A stretch of 22,407 nt of DNA, taken from positions 1 through 22,407 of the IMG/VR virus record IMGVR_UViG_3300047476_001503. The stretch is one strand, 5' to 3'. The notes under the pieces were generated by a model. It made no database searches and was not told where the DNA came from. It saw only the letters and a program-made list of their open reading frames with translations. Made by a program: the position numbers and the translations under genes. The stretch comes from a virus. Below, piece by piece: positions 8,971-19,243 of the stretch (the stretch's first letter is position 1; the number at the start of each line of letters is the position of its first letter).

Positions 8971-9399
8971 TTAATTACGCTTGGAAGCGGCTCTCTTGGC
9001 CATCTTGCCTACTGTTTTTTCTGGACCGCTGTCCGGTGAACCGTTGCTGCCAATATCTGAGTCACCAGAGTCGGAACGGTTAATATCTAAGTCCGGGTCG
9101 TCAAACGGAGTACTCGCAGGTTTAAGGAATACTGTCTTGACTCCTGACTCGTCGTCTTTAACACTGGCAATTAAATTTTTAACGGTTTGACTCTTGTCGT
9201 ATATCGACTTTAATGAGTCAACATTAAACATCTCAGAGCCGGGCATGTTTCTAACCATAGTGACTAGAGCCCGTAGACTAACTTTGGGCTCCTCACCGGT
9301 ATCCTGAAAACGATTCCTAATGGTTTCTAACCCATTGATCAAATTATTTTCGGAAAAATTAGTATCCCGGTCTTCTAAGATAAACTCTCTTGCTCGCAT
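8971..9399 (-). CDS. Candidate capsid-targeted small protein
   Basis: This 142-residue protein begins MRAREFILE-D, similar to the T4 capsid-targeting peptide with its (I/L)xE processing point, though Asp after the cut is not the usual Ala or Gly. Residues 20-90 look helical. Residues 95-127 are a Ser/Gly/Asp-rich acidic linker, and the end is short and basic (KMAKRAASKRN), suited to binding DNA. No enzyme motif is present. Its start is coupled to the upstream core-like gene (TAATG). Taken together it could be an internal head protein delivered with the DNA, but this rests on the N-terminus, composition and position. Confidence 0.68.
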   Translation of the reverse strand: MRAREFILEDRDTNFSENNLINGLETIRNRFQDTGEEPKVSLRALVTMVRNMPGSEMFNVDSLKSIYDKSQTVKNLIASVKDDESGVKTVFLKPASTPFDDPDLDINRSDSGDSDIGSNGSPDSGPEKTVGKMAKRAASKRN

Positions 9400-10073
9400 T
9401 AACGCTTTTCTCTACCAACAGGCTCTGTACCACCGGCGGCTGCATCAGTGGCAGCAAAAGAATCTAGCTCTGCGTCAAGGTCTGACTCAGGACCAGCTGC
9501 TGGGCCGCCTGGTAACGGCATTTCGCCTGGCATACCCATTCCGCCAGCAACTTCCTCACCGGCTAGCTGACGAGCACTGTTATCAGCAGTTTCGCGAGCC
9601 TGGCCTAGTGTACTGGCTAGATCAGTTAATAACTGACCCATAGAGCTCTTAAACTGATCGGCGTTCTGTGGGCCCATTTGATCACGGATTGTGTCAATCA
9701 GTGCAGGTAGTTGTTCTACTTGCATTTTGCTGACTTTTTCAACCATGTCTTGTAGGCTGTCAACCATGTCTTTGGCAGCAAGGATAGCTTCGCTCTTACC
9801 TAGTTCGCCTTCCATTAGTTGACGGTTTTCTTTTAGCCACTTGTTTAGACTTTCACGAACCATAAGCAATTCCATATACTTAGGATTCATTTCAGCCTTA
9901 TGGCCGCCGTAGCTATGACGGATTCGGTTTAAATTCTCGCTGATAGTATTGCTTAGGTGTAATGCTTTTCCGTAGCTAAGACGACCGAAGTCGATCTTAA
10001 ATCCAAAGCGAGAGTTCATAAGAGTGTTCATCTTCTGCGAAGAGATCACTGGGTTAATATCTTTAAGGTTCAT
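9399..10073 (-). CDS. Coiled-coil protein, possible prohead core component
   Basis: In this 224-residue protein, residues 60-165 are strongly helical and coiled-coil-like (MVDSLQDMVEKVSKMQVEQL). The last 55 are a flexible Gly/Pro/Ala/Asp-rich tail (GGMGMPGEMPLPGGP). Residues 86-89 read LME-G, matching the Leu/Ile-x-Glu pattern cut by T4-type prohead proteases. High helix content, acidity, a disordered tail and a possible processing site are typical of scaffold or core proteins, hence the tentative call. The ribosome binding site is AGGAA before ATG. The stop overlaps the next start (TAATG), and that neighbour has a capsid-targeting-like N-terminus, which supports a link to the head. Confidence 0.65.
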   Translation of the reverse strand: MNLKDINPVISSQKMNTLMNSRFGFKIDFGRLSYGKALHLSNTISENLNRIRHSYGGHKAEMNPKYMELLMVRESLNKWLKENRQLMEGELGKSEAILAAKDMVDSLQDMVEKVSKMQVEQLPALIDTIRDQMGPQNADQFKSSMGQLLTDLASTLGQARETADNSARQLAGEEVAGGMGMPGEMPLPGGPAAGPESDLDAELDSFAATDAAAGGTEPVGREKR

Positions 10074-11092: not shown

Positions 11093-11521
11093 TTAAAAAG
11101 AAACACGGAAATACAAATTTTTTAATATACCTTGTGTGTAAAAAACAGGATCAGGAAATCCTGCTGTTTCGTTTAGACCTGTTATGATAGGAATTTCATT
11201 AAAGTCCTGTCGTAAAAATTTTAAAGGATCTTCAGGAGGACCAAAAACATCACTGTGTTCAACAAAAAACATAAATTTCCAACACTGCTGACTATCTCGA
11301 TAAAAGCTACCAAATTCATGTGCAGCCGTTGACACTAGCCTAGGACTTTTTGCGCTGATTAAATCTACCGGCTGCGCTCTCAGTCCGATTACTTGCAGTA
11401 CTGTTTCCCAGTTTCGTTGCTGGTTTCTTTCAGTCTGCAGATCTTTTTTAATTCTTCTAACGCCGGTGTCAGTGATATCAACTAGTGTGTACCCTGAAAA
11501 CCATGTTCCTGGTCTCATCAT
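11093..11521 (-). CDS. Conserved-looking phage protein of unknown function
   Basis: This 142-residue soluble protein starts with two consecutive Met codons (MMRPGTWFSGYTLVDITDTG). It contains the segment ERNQQRNWETVLQVIGLRAQP and a tryptophan- and phenylalanine-rich middle (QCWKFMFFVEHSDVFG). I recognise the style of sequence from T4-like aquatic phages but cannot assign a function. A TATAAATA box and an intrinsic terminator lie directly upstream, so it begins a new late transcription unit. Products downstream include other unassigned small proteins. Confidence 0.7.
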   Translation of the reverse strand: MMRPGTWFSGYTLVDITDTGVRRIKKDLQTERNQQRNWETVLQVIGLRAQPVDLISAKSPRLVSTAAHEFGSFYRDSQQCWKFMFFVEHSDVFGPPEDPLKFLRQDFNEIPIITGLNETAGFPDPVFYTQGILKNLYFRVSF

Positions 11522-11523
11522 GA

Positions 11524-11531
11524 TATTTATA
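11524..11531 (-). promoter_or_regulatory. T4-type late promoter, TATAAATA
   Basis: This is an exact minus-strand TATAAATA between the terminator and the next gene, ending only two bases before the first of two in-frame ATGs. If used, transcription would begin at or very near the start codon, giving a leaderless message. No Shine-Dalgarno sequence is seen. Confidence 0.5.
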
Positions 11532-11948: not shown

Positions 11949-13040
11949 TTAGCGTTCTTTTGAGAAATGTGCTACACCGAAGTTTGGATTAATTAGTTTA
12001 ATTAGTCCGTAGCTTGTTGGAAACACTATGCCCTCTCCGCCGAGGCCTGCTGTTGTAGTTTGTTTAAAACCCTGTATTTGACCTTCGTAGGCATTAACAA
12101 TAGCAACCTTGGTCTTGAATATTGCATTCCATATGCTGTAAAGTGCATCAAGCCCTGCTTTATTTTTAGATATGTAGCCAGATTCTTCGTCGTCGCCTAT
12201 TAGGTTACGAAACTGTTTAGGGTTTGCATTTGTTCTCAGCCATTGATTAATAGTATCTTTAGTTTGCTGTGTTCTTACTTGATTTAGATATTTGCCAATT
12301 AATCCTCGGGCAACATTGTCTAGTCCTGCTAAAAATGCATCGCTTTGTTTTCCGTAAGTACTGATCACAGATTCTGTATCTCTGACCATCTTTAACAGAT
12401 TAGAAGCAGTAGCAGATGGCAAACTAAAACTTTGATCTACATTGGGAGGAATAACTGCTACATTGCTAACATTCTTTAGCCCAGTTTCTCCGTTCCAAGG
12501 GCGACCATCGAACTCGTGCACAACTATCAGTGCAACCTTGTTTGACATTAGTTTGCCTAGGTAACTGTTAGTAGCCACACTATAGGTTACTGTAGTGGGA
12601 CTAAACACAAAATTTGAACCAGTAGGTTTTAGCCCTGCTGAATCAACCATCATCAGGTCGCCTTTAAAGATTCCGGTAGTATTTCCTACACTTTTGGCTA
12701 GGCCTGGCCATATAGCGTCAATTTTAGCGTATAGGTCTGCGCGGTCTGCGCCACGGCCAGCATCGTAATCCCGCCAGCCTTGAGGACTAGTAGGGTACAC
12801 ACCCTTGGCAGGCATGTACTTGTCAGTCATAAAGAACTGACCGTCTTTATTACGCCCAAAGTAAAGAGCTATACCACCGTCCCATTTAATTGTGCCTAGT
12901 TCAGGTTTTTGTACAATTTCCTCTAAGGCTAGCGCATAGCGCATGGCCTTATCTGATCCTTGAAGGATAGCATCTTCTGGGTGCGGTATTCTAGGACCAT
13001 CGCCTATTGCTTCGGCCAAATAATCTGAAAATTTTTTCAT
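11949..13040 (-). CDS. Candidate capsid-targeted ligase-like (KxDG) adenylyltransferase
   Basis: The 363-residue protein starts MKKFSDYLAE-A, nearly position for position like the T4 internal-protein targeting peptide MKTYQEFIAE-A. The rest shows the motif order of ATP-dependent nucleic acid ligases: motif I Lys52-Trp-Asp-Gly55 in IKWDGGIALYFGR, a motif III-like FKGDLMMVD near 125-133, a IIIa-like strand ALIVVHEFDG (170-179), motif IV GEGIVF at 335-340 and motif V with Lys348 in LIKLI. It ends about 15 residues later, so the usual C-terminal OB domain and motif VI are missing. Its ATG overlaps the stop of the polymerase-X-like gene. DNA or RNA nick sealing is likely from the motifs but unproven. 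It could instead only adenylate a substrate. Confidence 0.68.
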   Translation of the reverse strand: MKKFSDYLAEAIGDGPRIPHPEDAILQGSDKAMRYALALEEIVQKPELGTIKWDGGIALYFGRNKDGQFFMTDKYMPAKGVYPTSPQGWRDYDAGRGADRADLYAKIDAIWPGLAKSVGNTTGIFKGDLMMVDSAGLKPTGSNFVFSPTTVTYSVATNSYLGKLMSNKVALIVVHEFDGRPWNGETGLKNVSNVAVIPPNVDQSFSLPSATASNLLKMVRDTESVISTYGKQSDAFLAGLDNVARGLIGKYLNQVRTQQTKDTINQWLRTNANPKQFRNLIGDDEESGYISKNKAGLDALYSIWNAIFKTKVAIVNAYEGQIQGFKQTTTAGLGGEGIVFPTSYGLIKLINPNFGVAHFSKER

Positions 13041-14920
13041 CCTAGCACATCACTCATTTGTCTGAACCAAGCGGCTGTTCCAGGTTGTACAGTTTCAGGT
13101 AATCTCATTAAACCCTTAGAAGCATCTTGCCTTGCTTGTGCTAATTTTCCTTCCCTATCGGGATCATTTTCTAGTGCTTTTAGAGCCGATTTGACACTAT
13201 TTAGGTCGTCTTCCTTGGCTTTAGGACCTAGTAGTATCTTGGCCACTTGTTTTCTTGTACGGCCAACAACTTCGTTATTATCTCTACGCAATAACTTTGC
13301 GCCAAATGCATCGAACTTTAGTCCTAGATGTTTAGCAATACTACTGATCAACATGAATAACTCACTGCCTTTAAATTCAGGATCGTCGTACATGCCCCTG
13401 AGGCCATGCTGATGCCAGGGCGCAACCAAGCCGGCTTCGTGTATAACCATAACATCAACTTGAGCTGTTTTTTTCTGGCCGGTTCCGGATTCTGCATATA
13501 TTATACCGATGCTGACATTACGACCGTTAACATTAGCCTCAACACCTTTTTTACTAAAATAATCTTTTAGTTTAAGTTTGGCATCTTTAACAGGATCCTT
13601 GGATTCATGTGTGTTAAAGAAATTAACAACATCTTCTGCTTCAACCATGACATCAATGTCGCCGGACTCTACTTTGTAACCGGCAGAGCCAATATCTGTT
13701 TGTATTCTTTTAACTAGTTCTGCAGGTAATAATTCTTTTGCTTGATTAACTACCGTTGCAACATCTTCTTTTTTTACAGGAGTTGATGTTGGAATAGCAT
13801 TACCACCTTCACGAATTACTCGACTTTCACGAAGGTCGTCGTCGGCAAATGGGTTCCAATTCTTTCTGCCTCGATTGATATCAATTACTTTATTATTGTT
13901 GCCTACATTGGCTCCGATAACATTTGATGGATCAATTATATCGTTCGCAGGATCATCGGGATCTTCAGCCTTACCTACCTTGGCTAGATCTTTTAATTCG
14001 TAATATCTCTTGTTTAGCTGTTTAACAAGATTAGGATCAATAATTTCAACGCCAGTAGTATCATCGTGCCATTGATTGTCATCAACTGTAAAACCATAGG
14101 CCTTGCCTCTAAGATCTACTTCAGCATCTCTCTTGGGTCTTCTAGAAGTAGGCTCGGGCTCAACTGGTTCGGCAACTACTTTTTCAACACCAGGTGTTGC
14201 AGCCTTGGGCGCTGCCGGCGACGACTGCTGTGCCTTAAGCATGTCAATAATTTTCTTATCGTCGGGATTGTTAGGATCTAATGTTTGGCCGCCTACTTTA
14301 ATAGGTTCATCGCCAACTGCTGGTTCAGCAGTTGGAGTATTGGTTCCTGCTTTTTGCTGATCGTAGTACTTCTTATTCAATAAGTTTATAGAATTAGCAT
14401 CTGCATATATATCACCAGTGCTTTTGTTATACCATTGTTGAGTTTCGGCGTCAAAAACAATAGGATTGCCGTTATAAAGAACTTCTGCATCCTTAGTTGG
14501 CAATGGATACCCAGTCGGCAAACTTGCTGCTCTAACCTGATTTGTACCTTGTCTACCAAAATATTCAGTCATCCTATCAAGAATGTACTTATTAGCGGTA
14601 GCCGCATCGTTTAATGATTTAAGTTGCGGAGCTGGTATGTTTGTAGGATTTCTTTTGTTGTATTTGTCTTTGTGTCTACGATCCATAAATTGGACCAATA
14701 ATTGAGACATTTGGTCCGGAGTCATCCCGGGCTGTCTTTTATACGCAGCAACTAAGGCATTCCATTCTTGGCCGGCTTCACTGGCCAATTCTTTATAATC
14801 CTGCAGGGCTTTTTGCTGCTGATTATAGGCTTTAACATTTTGTACAAGCCCGCTCATAGCAGACCCGGCTTTTTTAGCCCAGTCTAAAGGGCCTTCGTTA
14901 ATAATATCATTAACCTTCAT
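13037..14920 (-). CDS. Candidate capsid-targeted protein with family-X polymerase-like nucleotidyltransferase domain
   Basis: The 627-residue product begins MKVNDIINE-GP, which resembles a T4 capsid-targeting peptide cut by the prohead protease after Ile/Leu-x-Glu. Residues 10-360 are polar and low in complexity, with proline- and acid-rich linkers. At residues 363-372 come two more possible cleavage points (LRE-S and IRE-G). The C-terminal third carries the three carboxylates of a polymerase-beta fold: Asp421 and Asp423 in ESGDIDVMV (compare SSGDMDVLL in pol beta) and Asp489 in AQVDVMVI. Next come EFKGSELF and GLKFDAFG, like the FTGS and GLxLNEYG segments of polymerase X. No dRP-lyase or helix-hairpin-helix domain is evident. 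The stop overlaps the next start (ATGA). Polymerase activity is inferred; another nucleotidyltransfer reaction is possible. Confidence 0.72.
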   Translation of the reverse strand: MKVNDIINEGPLDWAKKAGSAMSGLVQNVKAYNQQQKALQDYKELASEAGQEWNALVAAYKRQPGMTPDQMSQLLVQFMDRRHKDKYNKRNPTNIPAPQLKSLNDAATANKYILDRMTEYFGRQGTNQVRAASLPTGYPLPTKDAEVLYNGNPIVFDAETQQWYNKSTGDIYADANSINLLNKKYYDQQKAGTNTPTAEPAVGDEPIKVGGQTLDPNNPDDKKIIDMLKAQQSSPAAPKAATPGVEKVVAEPVEPEPTSRRPKRDAEVDLRGKAYGFTVDDNQWHDDTTGVEIIDPNLVKQLNKRYYELKDLAKVGKAEDPDDPANDIIDPSNVIGANVGNNNKVIDINRGRKNWNPFADDDLRESRVIREGGNAIPTSTPVKKEDVATVVNQAKELLPAELVKRIQTDIGSAGYKVESGDIDVMVEAEDVVNFFNTHESKDPVKDAKLKLKDYFSKKGVEANVNGRNVSIGIIYAESGTGQKKTAQVDVMVIHEAGLVAPWHQHGLRGMYDDPEFKGSELFMLISSIAKHLGLKFDAFGAKLLRRDNNEVVGRTRKQVAKILLGPKAKEDDLNSVKSALKALENDPDREGKLAQARQDASKGLMRLPETVQPGTAAWFRQMSDVLG

Positions 14921-15158
14921 CGTTGAGCTTTCTTATGCCACGGGTAAATTTTGACGAATCACCGCTCCGTATGCTATTAAGAAGTCGTCGCTCAAGCTCA
15001 CCGGCTGTTTCGGTGTCGTAATTCTCTTTAATATAAGATAATAAATTAATAGCACTCTGTATTACATTGGTCGCGCGACTCTCCACAAAGTGTTTTTTAT
15101 CCCTTTGTGAAGCAATACTATCAAGCTCAGCTAAAAGACTTCTGGTTTTTTTCTGCAA
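14910..15158 (-). CDS. Small helical protein of unknown function
   Basis: This 82-residue, highly charged and probably all-helical protein carries no motif I recognise. The start is TTG at 15156-15158 with GGGGA seven bases upstream and a late promoter just before it; no ATG lies in frame nearby. It overlaps the next gene by 11 bases, so translation is likely coupled. Its position as first gene of the late unit with the polymerase-X-like and ligase-like genes suggests a late or virion-associated accessory role, but nothing in the sequence proves it. Confidence 0.6.
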   Translation of the reverse strand: MQKKTRSLLAELDSIASQRDKKHFVESRATNVIQSAINLLSYIKENYDTETAGELERRLLNSIRSGDSSKFTRGIRKLNDEG

Positions 15159-15178: not shown

Positions 15179-15186
15179 TATTTATA
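15179..15186 (-). promoter_or_regulatory. T4-type late promoter, TATAAATA
   Basis: This is an exact minus-strand match to the T4 late -10 box, 20 bases before the TTG start of the next gene, and leaves room for a short leader with GGGGA. The box lies inside a dyad (AGTAT-AA-ATACT with CTAG flanks). It separates the helicase gene from three genes that look late and virion-bound. Confidence 0.7.
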
Positions 15187-17635: not shown

Positions 17636-19243
17636 TTAAATTTTTCTGGTAAATCTGGGATAGGCAACACCACTGGTAGGTCTGGTATTGTAATTTACCT
17701 TGGGCCAAGCAGAACCAGTTTGCGGACGCTCTTGGCGATAATATAGGTACTTATTGTTAGCGCCTCGTAGTGCAAACCAATCCGAAAGTGCGCCGCCTGT
17801 GTCAACGACTTGCGATGCTTTTGAAGTATTAGCTATGTAATCCCTTGCATCGGATTGTTTCCATCTTGGATAAATTTCTAGCAAACAAGCCAACACGCCG
17901 GTTACCTGCGGACCAGCCATGCTAGTACCGGAAAGTTTACTTAAGAAAAATGACGAATTCCTTGAATCAGCTACTGTACCTGTATTTACACTACTGATGA
18001 TATTATTCCCCGGAGCAAATACATCAACACGAGGCCCCCTTGAGCTATAATCTGATTTTCGTTCAGACACAGTCGAATCAATTGCGCCAACGCAAATAAC
18101 TGTTGACCCAGCTGCTGGACTAGTTCCTGTCATATAAGGTACTGTATAATCAACACCACCATAGGACCATATAAAATAATTATTGAAGTCGGGTCCTGTT
18201 TCTATGTCTATAGTAACTCTCCAATTCCCTGCTGAAGCACAAATAATAATTCCGTCTCTGATTGCATCTGCGGTATCCGCATCCATTGATGCAGATCTTC
18301 CATCAGTTACCCAGTTTACTCCGTTATTGTAGATACCATAATTAGTTAGTTGGGTAGCTGATGCATCAGACGATATCAATGTTCCTCTATAGTAAAGTTG
18401 TTTAACCCCGGCAACATCAAATTGATAGCTAAGTCCAAAACTACAATTTATTATTGTAGGATTTCTATAACCGGTGGCCGGATTTATTGGTTTTGAATTA
18501 TGCCAAGCCCTGATGTAATCAAATATAGCATCGCCGGCTATAGGACTTGGGGCATCTGAGTACGGACTGATGTTGTATATATTTGCCTGCCTGGCCCAAC
18601 CCTGTGTATTTCCGCAAGCTGTTCCTGCCACATGATTACCGTGATTGTTACCGTCGTTGGCTAGTAGATTATAGCTATAAACACCGTTTGTGCCGCCGGT
18701 GACCTGGTTAGTATGTTGGAACCAGTTATACTGTATAACTCTCGATCCCCCAGTTCCATCGGCATTTTTTGCAAACTCTGGATGGTTAACATTTAAGATT
18801 CCATCAGCAATAACCACATCAACATTTCTTCCTTCGGCAGTTAAAGTGACTGTTCCTGTTTGAGATGCGGTACCATCCGAGCCCCAATTTGAACGAGGAG
18901 CACCTTCAGTGGATCTTAACAATCCCCAATTCCTGTGTACATTATTAACAGTACTCGACTTATCCCAATTGCTACTGGTTTGTACTGCATAAGGAACAAC
19001 TTTCAATCCTCGTTCTGCAATAGTTAATTCAACCGCTTCGACTCTAGGATCATTTTTAAGAACTGTAGCTTCGTCGTCGGACAACATATAATGAGTATTT
19101 CGACTAATGGGTCTTCTGGCCGCTAGTTCAACAGCCCTTCCAGGAATATATAAATTGCCACCTTCGGTTTCCATGTCGTTATAAAAATCATCAAGATCTT
19201 CAAATTGACGAAGGGTAACTATATATTCTCGTAACGATACCAT
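17636..19243 (-). CDS. Subtilisin-family (S8) serine protease with probable I9-type propeptide
   Basis: All catalytic elements of a subtilase are visible in this 535-residue protein. Asp147 lies in VVIADGIL, followed seven residues later by His154-Pro as in subtilisin. His201 is in HGNHVAGT, the oxyanion Asn340 in CASAGN, and Ser441 in GTSMAGP. Residues 5-75 (REYIVTL, then LSDDEATVLKNDPRVEAVEL) resemble an inhibitory I9 propeptide, so the enzyme is probably made as a self-cleaving zymogen. There is no signal peptide or membrane segment, which fits action inside the infected cell or as a virion part. The gene follows the fibre genes after 2 bases, with GAGGA before ATG. It could process tail proteins or degrade host surface proteins at adsorption; the sequence does not say which. 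Confidence 0.9.
   Translation of the reverse strand: MVSLREYIVTLRQFEDLDDFYNDMETEGGNLYIPGRAVELAARRPISRNTHYMLSDDEATVLKNDPRVEAVELTIAERGLKVVPYAVQTSSNWDKSSTVNNVHRNWGLLRSTEGAPRSNWGSDGTASQTGTVTLTAEGRNVDVVIADGILNVNHPEFAKNADGTGGSRVIQYNWFQHTNQVTGGTNGVYSYNLLANDGNNHGNHVAGTACGNTQGWARQANIYNISPYSDAPSPIAGDAIFDYIRAWHNSKPINPATGYRNPTIINCSFGLSYQFDVAGVKQLYYRGTLISSDASATQLTNYGIYNNGVNWVTDGRSASMDADTADAIRDGIIICASAGNWRVTIDIETGPDFNNYFIWSYGGVDYTVPYMTGTSPAAGSTVICVGAIDSTVSERKSDYSSRGPRVDVFAPGNNIISSVNTGTVADSRNSSFFLSKLSGTSMAGPQVTGVLACLLEIYPRWKQSDARDYIANTSKASQVVDTGGALSDWFALRGANNKYLYYRQERPQTGSAWPKVNYNTRPTSGVAYPRFTRKI

Follow-up and report, generated by a model that had tools for sequence, protein, structure and literature searches.

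The phage represented by the 22,407-base IMG/VR virus record IMGVR_UViG_3300047476_001503 (hereafter the window, meaning this whole stretch of DNA) probably injects a kit for mending nucleic acid along with its DNA. The gene content of the window is that of a T4-like phage, with a primase, a DnaB-type helicase gp41, a ribonucleotide reductase, an exonuclease and tail fibres, and the kit would consist of the products of two overlapping genes, A and B, which resemble a polymerase and a ligase, respectively. We propose that A and B are expressed late, as internal head proteins of the T4 type, and form an injected nucleic-acid repair set, a reading to which we give an even chance. An initial annotation of this DNA had described two genes joined by an ATGA overlap, and both open reading frames (ORFs) and the overlap were confirmed on the minus strand:

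13037-14920, minus strand: ORF A, 627 amino acids, with a leader, an N-terminal region, a disordered linker and a polymerase-X-like domain
11949-13040, minus strand: ORF B, 363 amino acids, a ligase-like protein of the family DUF6267 (PF19782)
13037-13040, minus strand: ATGA overlap of the stop of A and the start of B, four bases common to both ORFs

According to the initial annotation, A carries three carboxylates (D421, D423 and D489) in settings like those of family X polymerases; these residues and the strings SGDIDVMV, QVDVMVI, FKGS and GLKFDAFG are all present in the protein. Structure prediction, which had been named as a check for a pol-beta palm, yielded a palm of the Pol X type. The AlphaFold2 model of A, made with 67 relatives, has a confident domain at residues 372-577, after a disordered stretch (residues 328-371), with the following features:

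13190-13807, minus strand: family X polymerase-like palm and C-terminal subdomain, residues 372-577, assigned with Foldseek, VIA and hhalign
13652-13660, minus strand: D421-I-D423, the first two metal-binding carboxylates, conserved in 66 and 67 of 67 sequences, respectively
13454-13456, minus strand: D489, the third carboxylate, conserved in 66 of 67 sequences and aligned with its Asp counterpart in bacterial PolX

Among the matches listed by Foldseek for this model, all are Pol lambda, Pol mu, Pol beta or TdT (best match 4k4g, E 1e-5), and VIA-align places PolX of African swine fever virus (ASFV) first (Z 10.6, root-mean-square deviation 3.1, 157 of 178 residues aligned). Comparison with a bacterial PolX profile by hhalign gave a modest signal (E 5e-4 over 141 columns), in which the GSxG...GDID, QVD and C-terminal ‘SIAKxLGLK’ regions of A are paired with their PolX equivalents. 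The profile comprises 44 genomic sequences; the query with which they were fetched was kept out of the comparison. No family in Pfam or PHROG matches A, plain phmmer searches with A and B against the PDB sequences returned nothing useful, and profile searches with the two proteins gave no ligase or polymerase match. Therefore, the enzyme assignments of A and B depend on their motifs, their folds and a single profile comparison. The structure model, the fold matches and the profile comparison bear out the earlier reading of the C-terminal domain of A, and support its assignment as family X DNA polymerase-like, with catalysis as a prediction. The domain shares with family X DNA polymerases (ASFV PolX, Pol lambda, mu and beta, and bacterial PolX) the GS...GDxD motif, the third Asp, and the palm and C-terminal subdomain, but A has no 8-kDa lyase domain and is joined to a phage-specific, tagged N-terminal region. 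Identity of A as an RlaP nucleotidyltransferase was also considered and rejected: Pfam PF10127 does not match, the fold is that of Pol X, and the hhalign comparison with RlaP gave E 0.4, nothing significant being found with any of the RlaP and ligase profiles (all E 0.35 or worse).

B matches DUF6267 well above the cut-off (E 8e-18, 65.4 bits, cut-off 27), and contains KWDG (residues 52-55), FKGDLMM, GEGIVF and LIKLI in the order in which they had been reported. Structure prediction was likewise the check named for an adenylation domain in B, and the model, which is confident except for the first 15 residues (predicted local distance difference test score, pLDDT, 93), has a ligase-type fold. 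With the conserved residues, it substantiates the adenylation fold and motifs: the catalytic positions overall are kept in 80-83 of the 83 aligned relatives, and K52, D54, D128, E336, G337 and K348 in all 83.

12876-12887, minus strand: motif I, K52-W-D-G, with the predicted adenylated lysine; K52 and D54 in 83 of 83
12657-12662, minus strand: motif III-like G127-D128; D128 in 83 of 83
12084-12416, minus strand: residues 209-319, an all-helical insert that separates motifs III and IV in the model
12030-12035, minus strand: motif IV, E336-G337; 83 of 83
11997-11999, minus strand: motif V, K348; 83 of 83

Conservation of the motifs exceeds chance in both proteins (66-67 of 67 sequences for A, 80-83 of 83 for B). 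The best 37 structures listed by VIA for B all belong to the ligase superfamily; RNA ligases lead (Z 7.2-6.2, including 5cou with Z 7.2 and T4 Rnl1, 9do4, with Z 6.6) and DNA ligases are close (Z 5.5-6.3). The top matches are the RNA ligases Naegleria Rnl, T4 Rnl1, Trl1 and T4 Rnl2. B resembles RNA ligases of the Rnl1, Rnl2 and Rnl5 types and ATP-dependent DNA ligases in motifs I, III, IV and V and in the adenylation fold, but differs from them in that motif III has D where they have E, motif V has just one Lys, an all-helical insert precedes motif IV on the way from motif III, and there is no OB domain. Since the OB domain is missing, B is not a standard DNA ligase, and identity as a standard ATP-dependent DNA ligase was rejected. 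The sequence and the model support a ligase-type adenylation domain that is not a DNA ligase and is predicted to be catalytic. DUF6267 has no assigned function so far, and this finding, if correct, suggests one.

The missing OB domain and the RNA ligases as nearest folds make the end-joining of incoming DNA, which the initial annotation had envisaged, only one of several readings. A argues for a DNA substrate, whereas B looks more like RNA ligases. We lean slightly towards DNA of the phage itself, nicked or gapped, rather than cleaved RNA, and this choice of substrate is the least certain part of the proposal. The leading alternative for the function, though in our view an unlikely one, is that the head carries an RNA repair kit instead, in which A would restore lost nucleotides and B would seal RNA, in the manner of the phage pairs of RlaP and RNA ligase. 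One such target could be tRNA that a host anticodon nuclease cuts as infection starts. The ranking of RNA ligases as top structural matches of B and the lack of an OB domain fit such a kit, and pairs of a nucleotidyltransferase and an RNA ligase are a described theme in phages (PMC7824862). However, profile, Pfam and fold favour Pol X over RlaP for A, and the Z scores of RNA and DNA ligases for B differ by no more than about 1, which amounts to a tie.

The proposal that A and B are internal head proteins draws on their N-terminal sequences. T4 internal proteins are packed through a 10-residue N-terminal sequence, in which targeting depends on residues 4 and 7 and cleavage on residues 8 and 10; the T4 prohead protease gp21 cleaves after L/I-X-E (PMC9026906). 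Peptides of this kind had been reported on both proteins; the start of B does fit the full tag and the cleavage motif, but that of A fits the cleavage motif only. An internal site in A, and fusions of A and B that keep a site, had been overlooked (arrows mark the predicted cut):

13011-13040, minus strand: capsid-targeting-like leader of B, MKKFSDYLAE↓A, with aromatic residues at 4 and 7, L8 and E10; disordered in the model
14894-14920, minus strand: leader of A, MKVNDIINE↓G, ending in an I-x-E↓G motif; low-confidence (disordered) in the model
13805-13816, minus strand: internal protease-type site of A, I369-R370-E371↓G372, where the disordered linker gives way to the polymerase domain; residues 367-371 have pLDDT <50

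The leader of B (MKKFSDYLAE↓A) matches the starts of T4 IPIII (MKTYQEFIAE↓A) and of SSM1_190 from cyanophage S-SM1 (MKKFSAFLNE↓A), and B starts in relatives include MKTYREFLTEA and MKTYTEYLVEA. Among related sequences, which are not independent events, the motif L/I/V/M/F-x-E-[AG] is present in 50 of the 58 distinct N-termini of B from loci with A. Fusions of A and B have no N-terminus at this place, yet 23 of their 26 distinct linkers keep the motif immediately ahead of the ligase domain, at slightly varying distances from it, where shuffled sequences would give 2.6. Ahead of the polymerase domain, [LIV]-x-E-G-G is found in all 64 sequences, including those that have 370 preceding residues like A of the window. 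Chance occurrence of the tags was ruled out with shuffles. The case for tagging is strong for B and weaker for A, and of the new results it is the strongest. The sites lie at domain edges and are disordered in both models, as expected of protease sites, and cleavage at I369-R-E371↓G would free the polymerase domain. A gp21-type protease (PF03420) is encoded in 5 related records, one of which has A beside gp23.

The coupling of A and B is borne out by their adjacency and fusion in related loci, and the linked pair recurs in many freshwater relatives. Both are present in 121 such loci, mostly adjacent or overlapping, and form a single fused ORF in 31. The order gp41, an 82-amino-acid gene, A and B is common, the gp41 helicase and the gp61 primase precede the operon in 66-114 loci, and one relative of the window, a 216-kb phage, has A downstream of gp21, gp22 and gp23. 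A sequence box had been described ahead of the gene pair; the box is real (15186-15179), but the 82-amino-acid gene (15158-14910) intervenes before A:

15179-15186, minus strand: TATAAATA, T4-type late promoter box, position kept in ten relatives
14910-15158, minus strand: 82-amino-acid gene with a TTG start, the first after the box; homologue of phrog_11854 ‘virion structural protein’ (E 8e-19)

This small gene stands beside A or B in 103 loci. By number alone, the 3 copies of TATAAATA in the window are unremarkable against an expected 1.9; what places the box above chance is its conserved position. In ten relatives it precedes A, or the N-terminal gene split off from A, by 261-268 bp, amid diverging flanks. 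A second copy of TATAAATA is found at 11524-11531 (minus strand), a few bases ahead of the listed start of a 142-amino-acid ORF (11093-11521), and the true start of this ORF may therefore lie further in.

From the well-supported computed folds, residues, linkage, tags and promoter we infer a course of packaging, cleavage, ejection, activity and substrate. A and B would be expressed late and enter the prohead core by their short N-terminal tags. A gp21-type prohead protease would then trim after L/I-x-E, which would remove the tag of B and free the polymerase-X-like domain from the leader and N-terminal region of A. Ejected with the genome, the gap-filling nucleotidyltransferase and the nucleotidyl-lysine ligase would repair breaks in nucleic acid as infection begins, ahead of any phage gene expression. 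The T4 proteins IPI-III and Alt resemble this system in the tag (on B: aromatic residues at 4 and 7, L/I at 8, E at 10, then A), the late promoter box and the gp21-type protease, seen here in relatives. The T4 cargo, however, consists of restriction inhibitors and an ADP-ribosyltransferase, whereas the cargo proposed here looks like a polymerase and a ligase, and the fused forms retain a protease site at the boundary of enzyme domains, like a polyprotein. Tentatively, and with more doubt than belief, we extend the proposal to freshwater T4-like phages that would make head cargo as polyproteins (polymerase X, a second nucleotidyltransferase and ligase), cut at L/I-x-E in the capsid, with the injected kit repairing or circularising the genome before transcription. 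If these ideas are correct, phage DNA would survive entry by means of delivered repair enzymes, rather than host or newly made ones, and the head-maturation protease would double as a polyprotein processor for cargo.

DUF6267 is present in 467 of the phage records searched, mostly those of cyanophages. The cyanophage proteins (T4-GC71, phrog_455) share with B the Pfam family, the place after gp41, and a partner that is tagged and found in virions, but this partner is a cytidylyltransferase-like (HIGH-type) protein, T4-GC190, and not Pol X. Independent support for the proposed packaging comes from S-SM1, in which the DUF6267 gene SSM1_189 (T4-GC71) overlaps the cytidylyltransferase gene SSM1_190 (T4-GC190), the product of which was detected in purified S-SM1 virions (PMC3037559). 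In S-PM2, DUF6267 and the cytidylyltransferase are fused without an L/I-x-E motif, and the fused protein was not detected in the virion of that phage (PMC3037559). The cyanophage pairing with a cytidylyltransferase-like enzyme rather than Pol X would suit a different role, in which packaged A and B modify host proteins or small molecules by transfer of nucleoside monophosphates, in the way of T4 Alt, and do not repair nucleic acid; nucleotidyltransferases of the Pol-beta fold have indeed been proposed as protein modifiers in injected phage proteins (PMC5512222). We consider this role improbable, because the C-terminal subdomain of Pol X and the ligase-fold partner point to a polynucleotide substrate. 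Even less probable is an ordinary role for A and B inside the cell, as replication or repair enzymes that are not packaged, with E-G-G and E-A motifs that are structural or due to chance: the position of the operon after gp41 and gp61 in the 66-114 loci mentioned above and the DUF6267 proteins without a tag agree with it, but the protease motif is retained at otherwise variable, disordered junctions, the operon has a separate conserved late promoter, and a tagged neighbour of DUF6267 is detected in virions.

Several observations weigh against A and B being an injected repair set. We found no virion proteomics of this phage or of any phage with A. Positions 4 and 7 of the A leader are not aromatic, so that the full 10-residue T4 targeting sequence is not matched; in standalone polymerase proteins E↓GG follows no more than a short leader and may be structural; and the DUF6267 proteins of P-TIM40, S-PM2 and S-SM1 have no tag. 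The 22-kb window record contains neither a capsid nor a protease gene, the protease being seen in relatives only, and PF03420 was unmatched in 10 of 15 related records, mostly fragments. For B, Foldseek matches are weak (best E 0.2) and VIA Z scores are below 8, the ligase assignment being one of motifs and fold; hhalign comparison with sets of DNA and RNA ligases gave no significant match; and in the confident model motif V is followed by a single helix (residues 352-360) in place of an OB domain.

Few phage-injected enzymes are known, and none in the literature searched is a polymerase and ligase pair. Polyvalent injected phage proteins have been described (PMC5512222), and a viral combination of Pol X and ligase exists in the polymerase-lyase-ligase fusion PolX of Phaeocystis globosa virus (PMC5537341). 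Its likeness to A and B is a Pol X core and a ligase in one polypeptide or pair, but its ligase is an NAD-dependent DNA ligase, whereas B is a DUF6267 protein without an OB domain, and the abstract of that paper mentions no head-targeting tag or protease site. A phage pair of Pol X and ligase that bears head tags of the T4 type and has protease sites at its domain junctions was not found in the literature searched, which excluded most subscription journals. Head-packaged enzymes, polyvalent injected proteins and viral PolX-ligase combinations are each known, and the tagged phage pair with junction sites is new to that literature.

Searches by tblastn with A and with a short polymerase homologue against isolated phages gave no match, and a scan of a bacterial and archaeal genome set found no relative. 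Gene 101 of Xanthomonas phage XaC1, which adjoins a DUF6267 gene, was tested as a homologue of A and is not one. The N-terminal 370 residues of A form a separate module, which is a gene of its own just upstream in the related loci L029, L030, L125, L133, L137, L144 and L145. The module contains a repeat, recognized from secondary structure and a self-match:

13979-14500, minus strand: duplicated beta-beta-beta-alpha units, residues 141-191 and 262-314 of A

The units carry a W-x-(N/D)-x-x-TG-like string and are apparently reduced to one copy in L003 and L004.

In some relatives a third gene lies between A and B (L113:6774-7802, L164:5261-6277 and L155:6766-7782). It starts with M...L/I-x-E↓GGWDT, and its strings GS...GDIDLQM and QVD form a pol-beta-like nucleotidyltransferase pattern; it has no Pfam, PHROG or phage match. 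In L146 (3662-5059), the GGWDT protein is fused behind a part that, by eye, is acetyltransferase-like, and the fusion has a tag-like start of its own, MRAREFVVES, and a V-x-E↓GGW junction.

Strict T4-type tags also occur on other genes of related contigs, with 7 among 1406 ORFs against 0.1 expected. They include L067:1631-2761, L082:3428-4783 and L086:1146-2627, and offer a route to more head cargo. In Pelagibacter phage HTVC008M (L018:8935-9993), the gene upstream of DUF6267 starts with MLSFTGYSNLSEAR, which holds an L-x-E↓A motif, and has no PHROG or Pfam match. Two genes downstream of A and B in the window (8971-9399 and 9399-10073, minus strand) are both conserved, a few kb past A; one of them starts with MRAREFILED, and one matches phrog_14154 ‘virion structural protein’. 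Finally, a 535-amino-acid protein of the subtilase type (Peptidase_S8; 17636-19243, minus strand) adjoins the primase gene and also matches a tail-fibre family, and is an unusual protease with a possible link to the virion.

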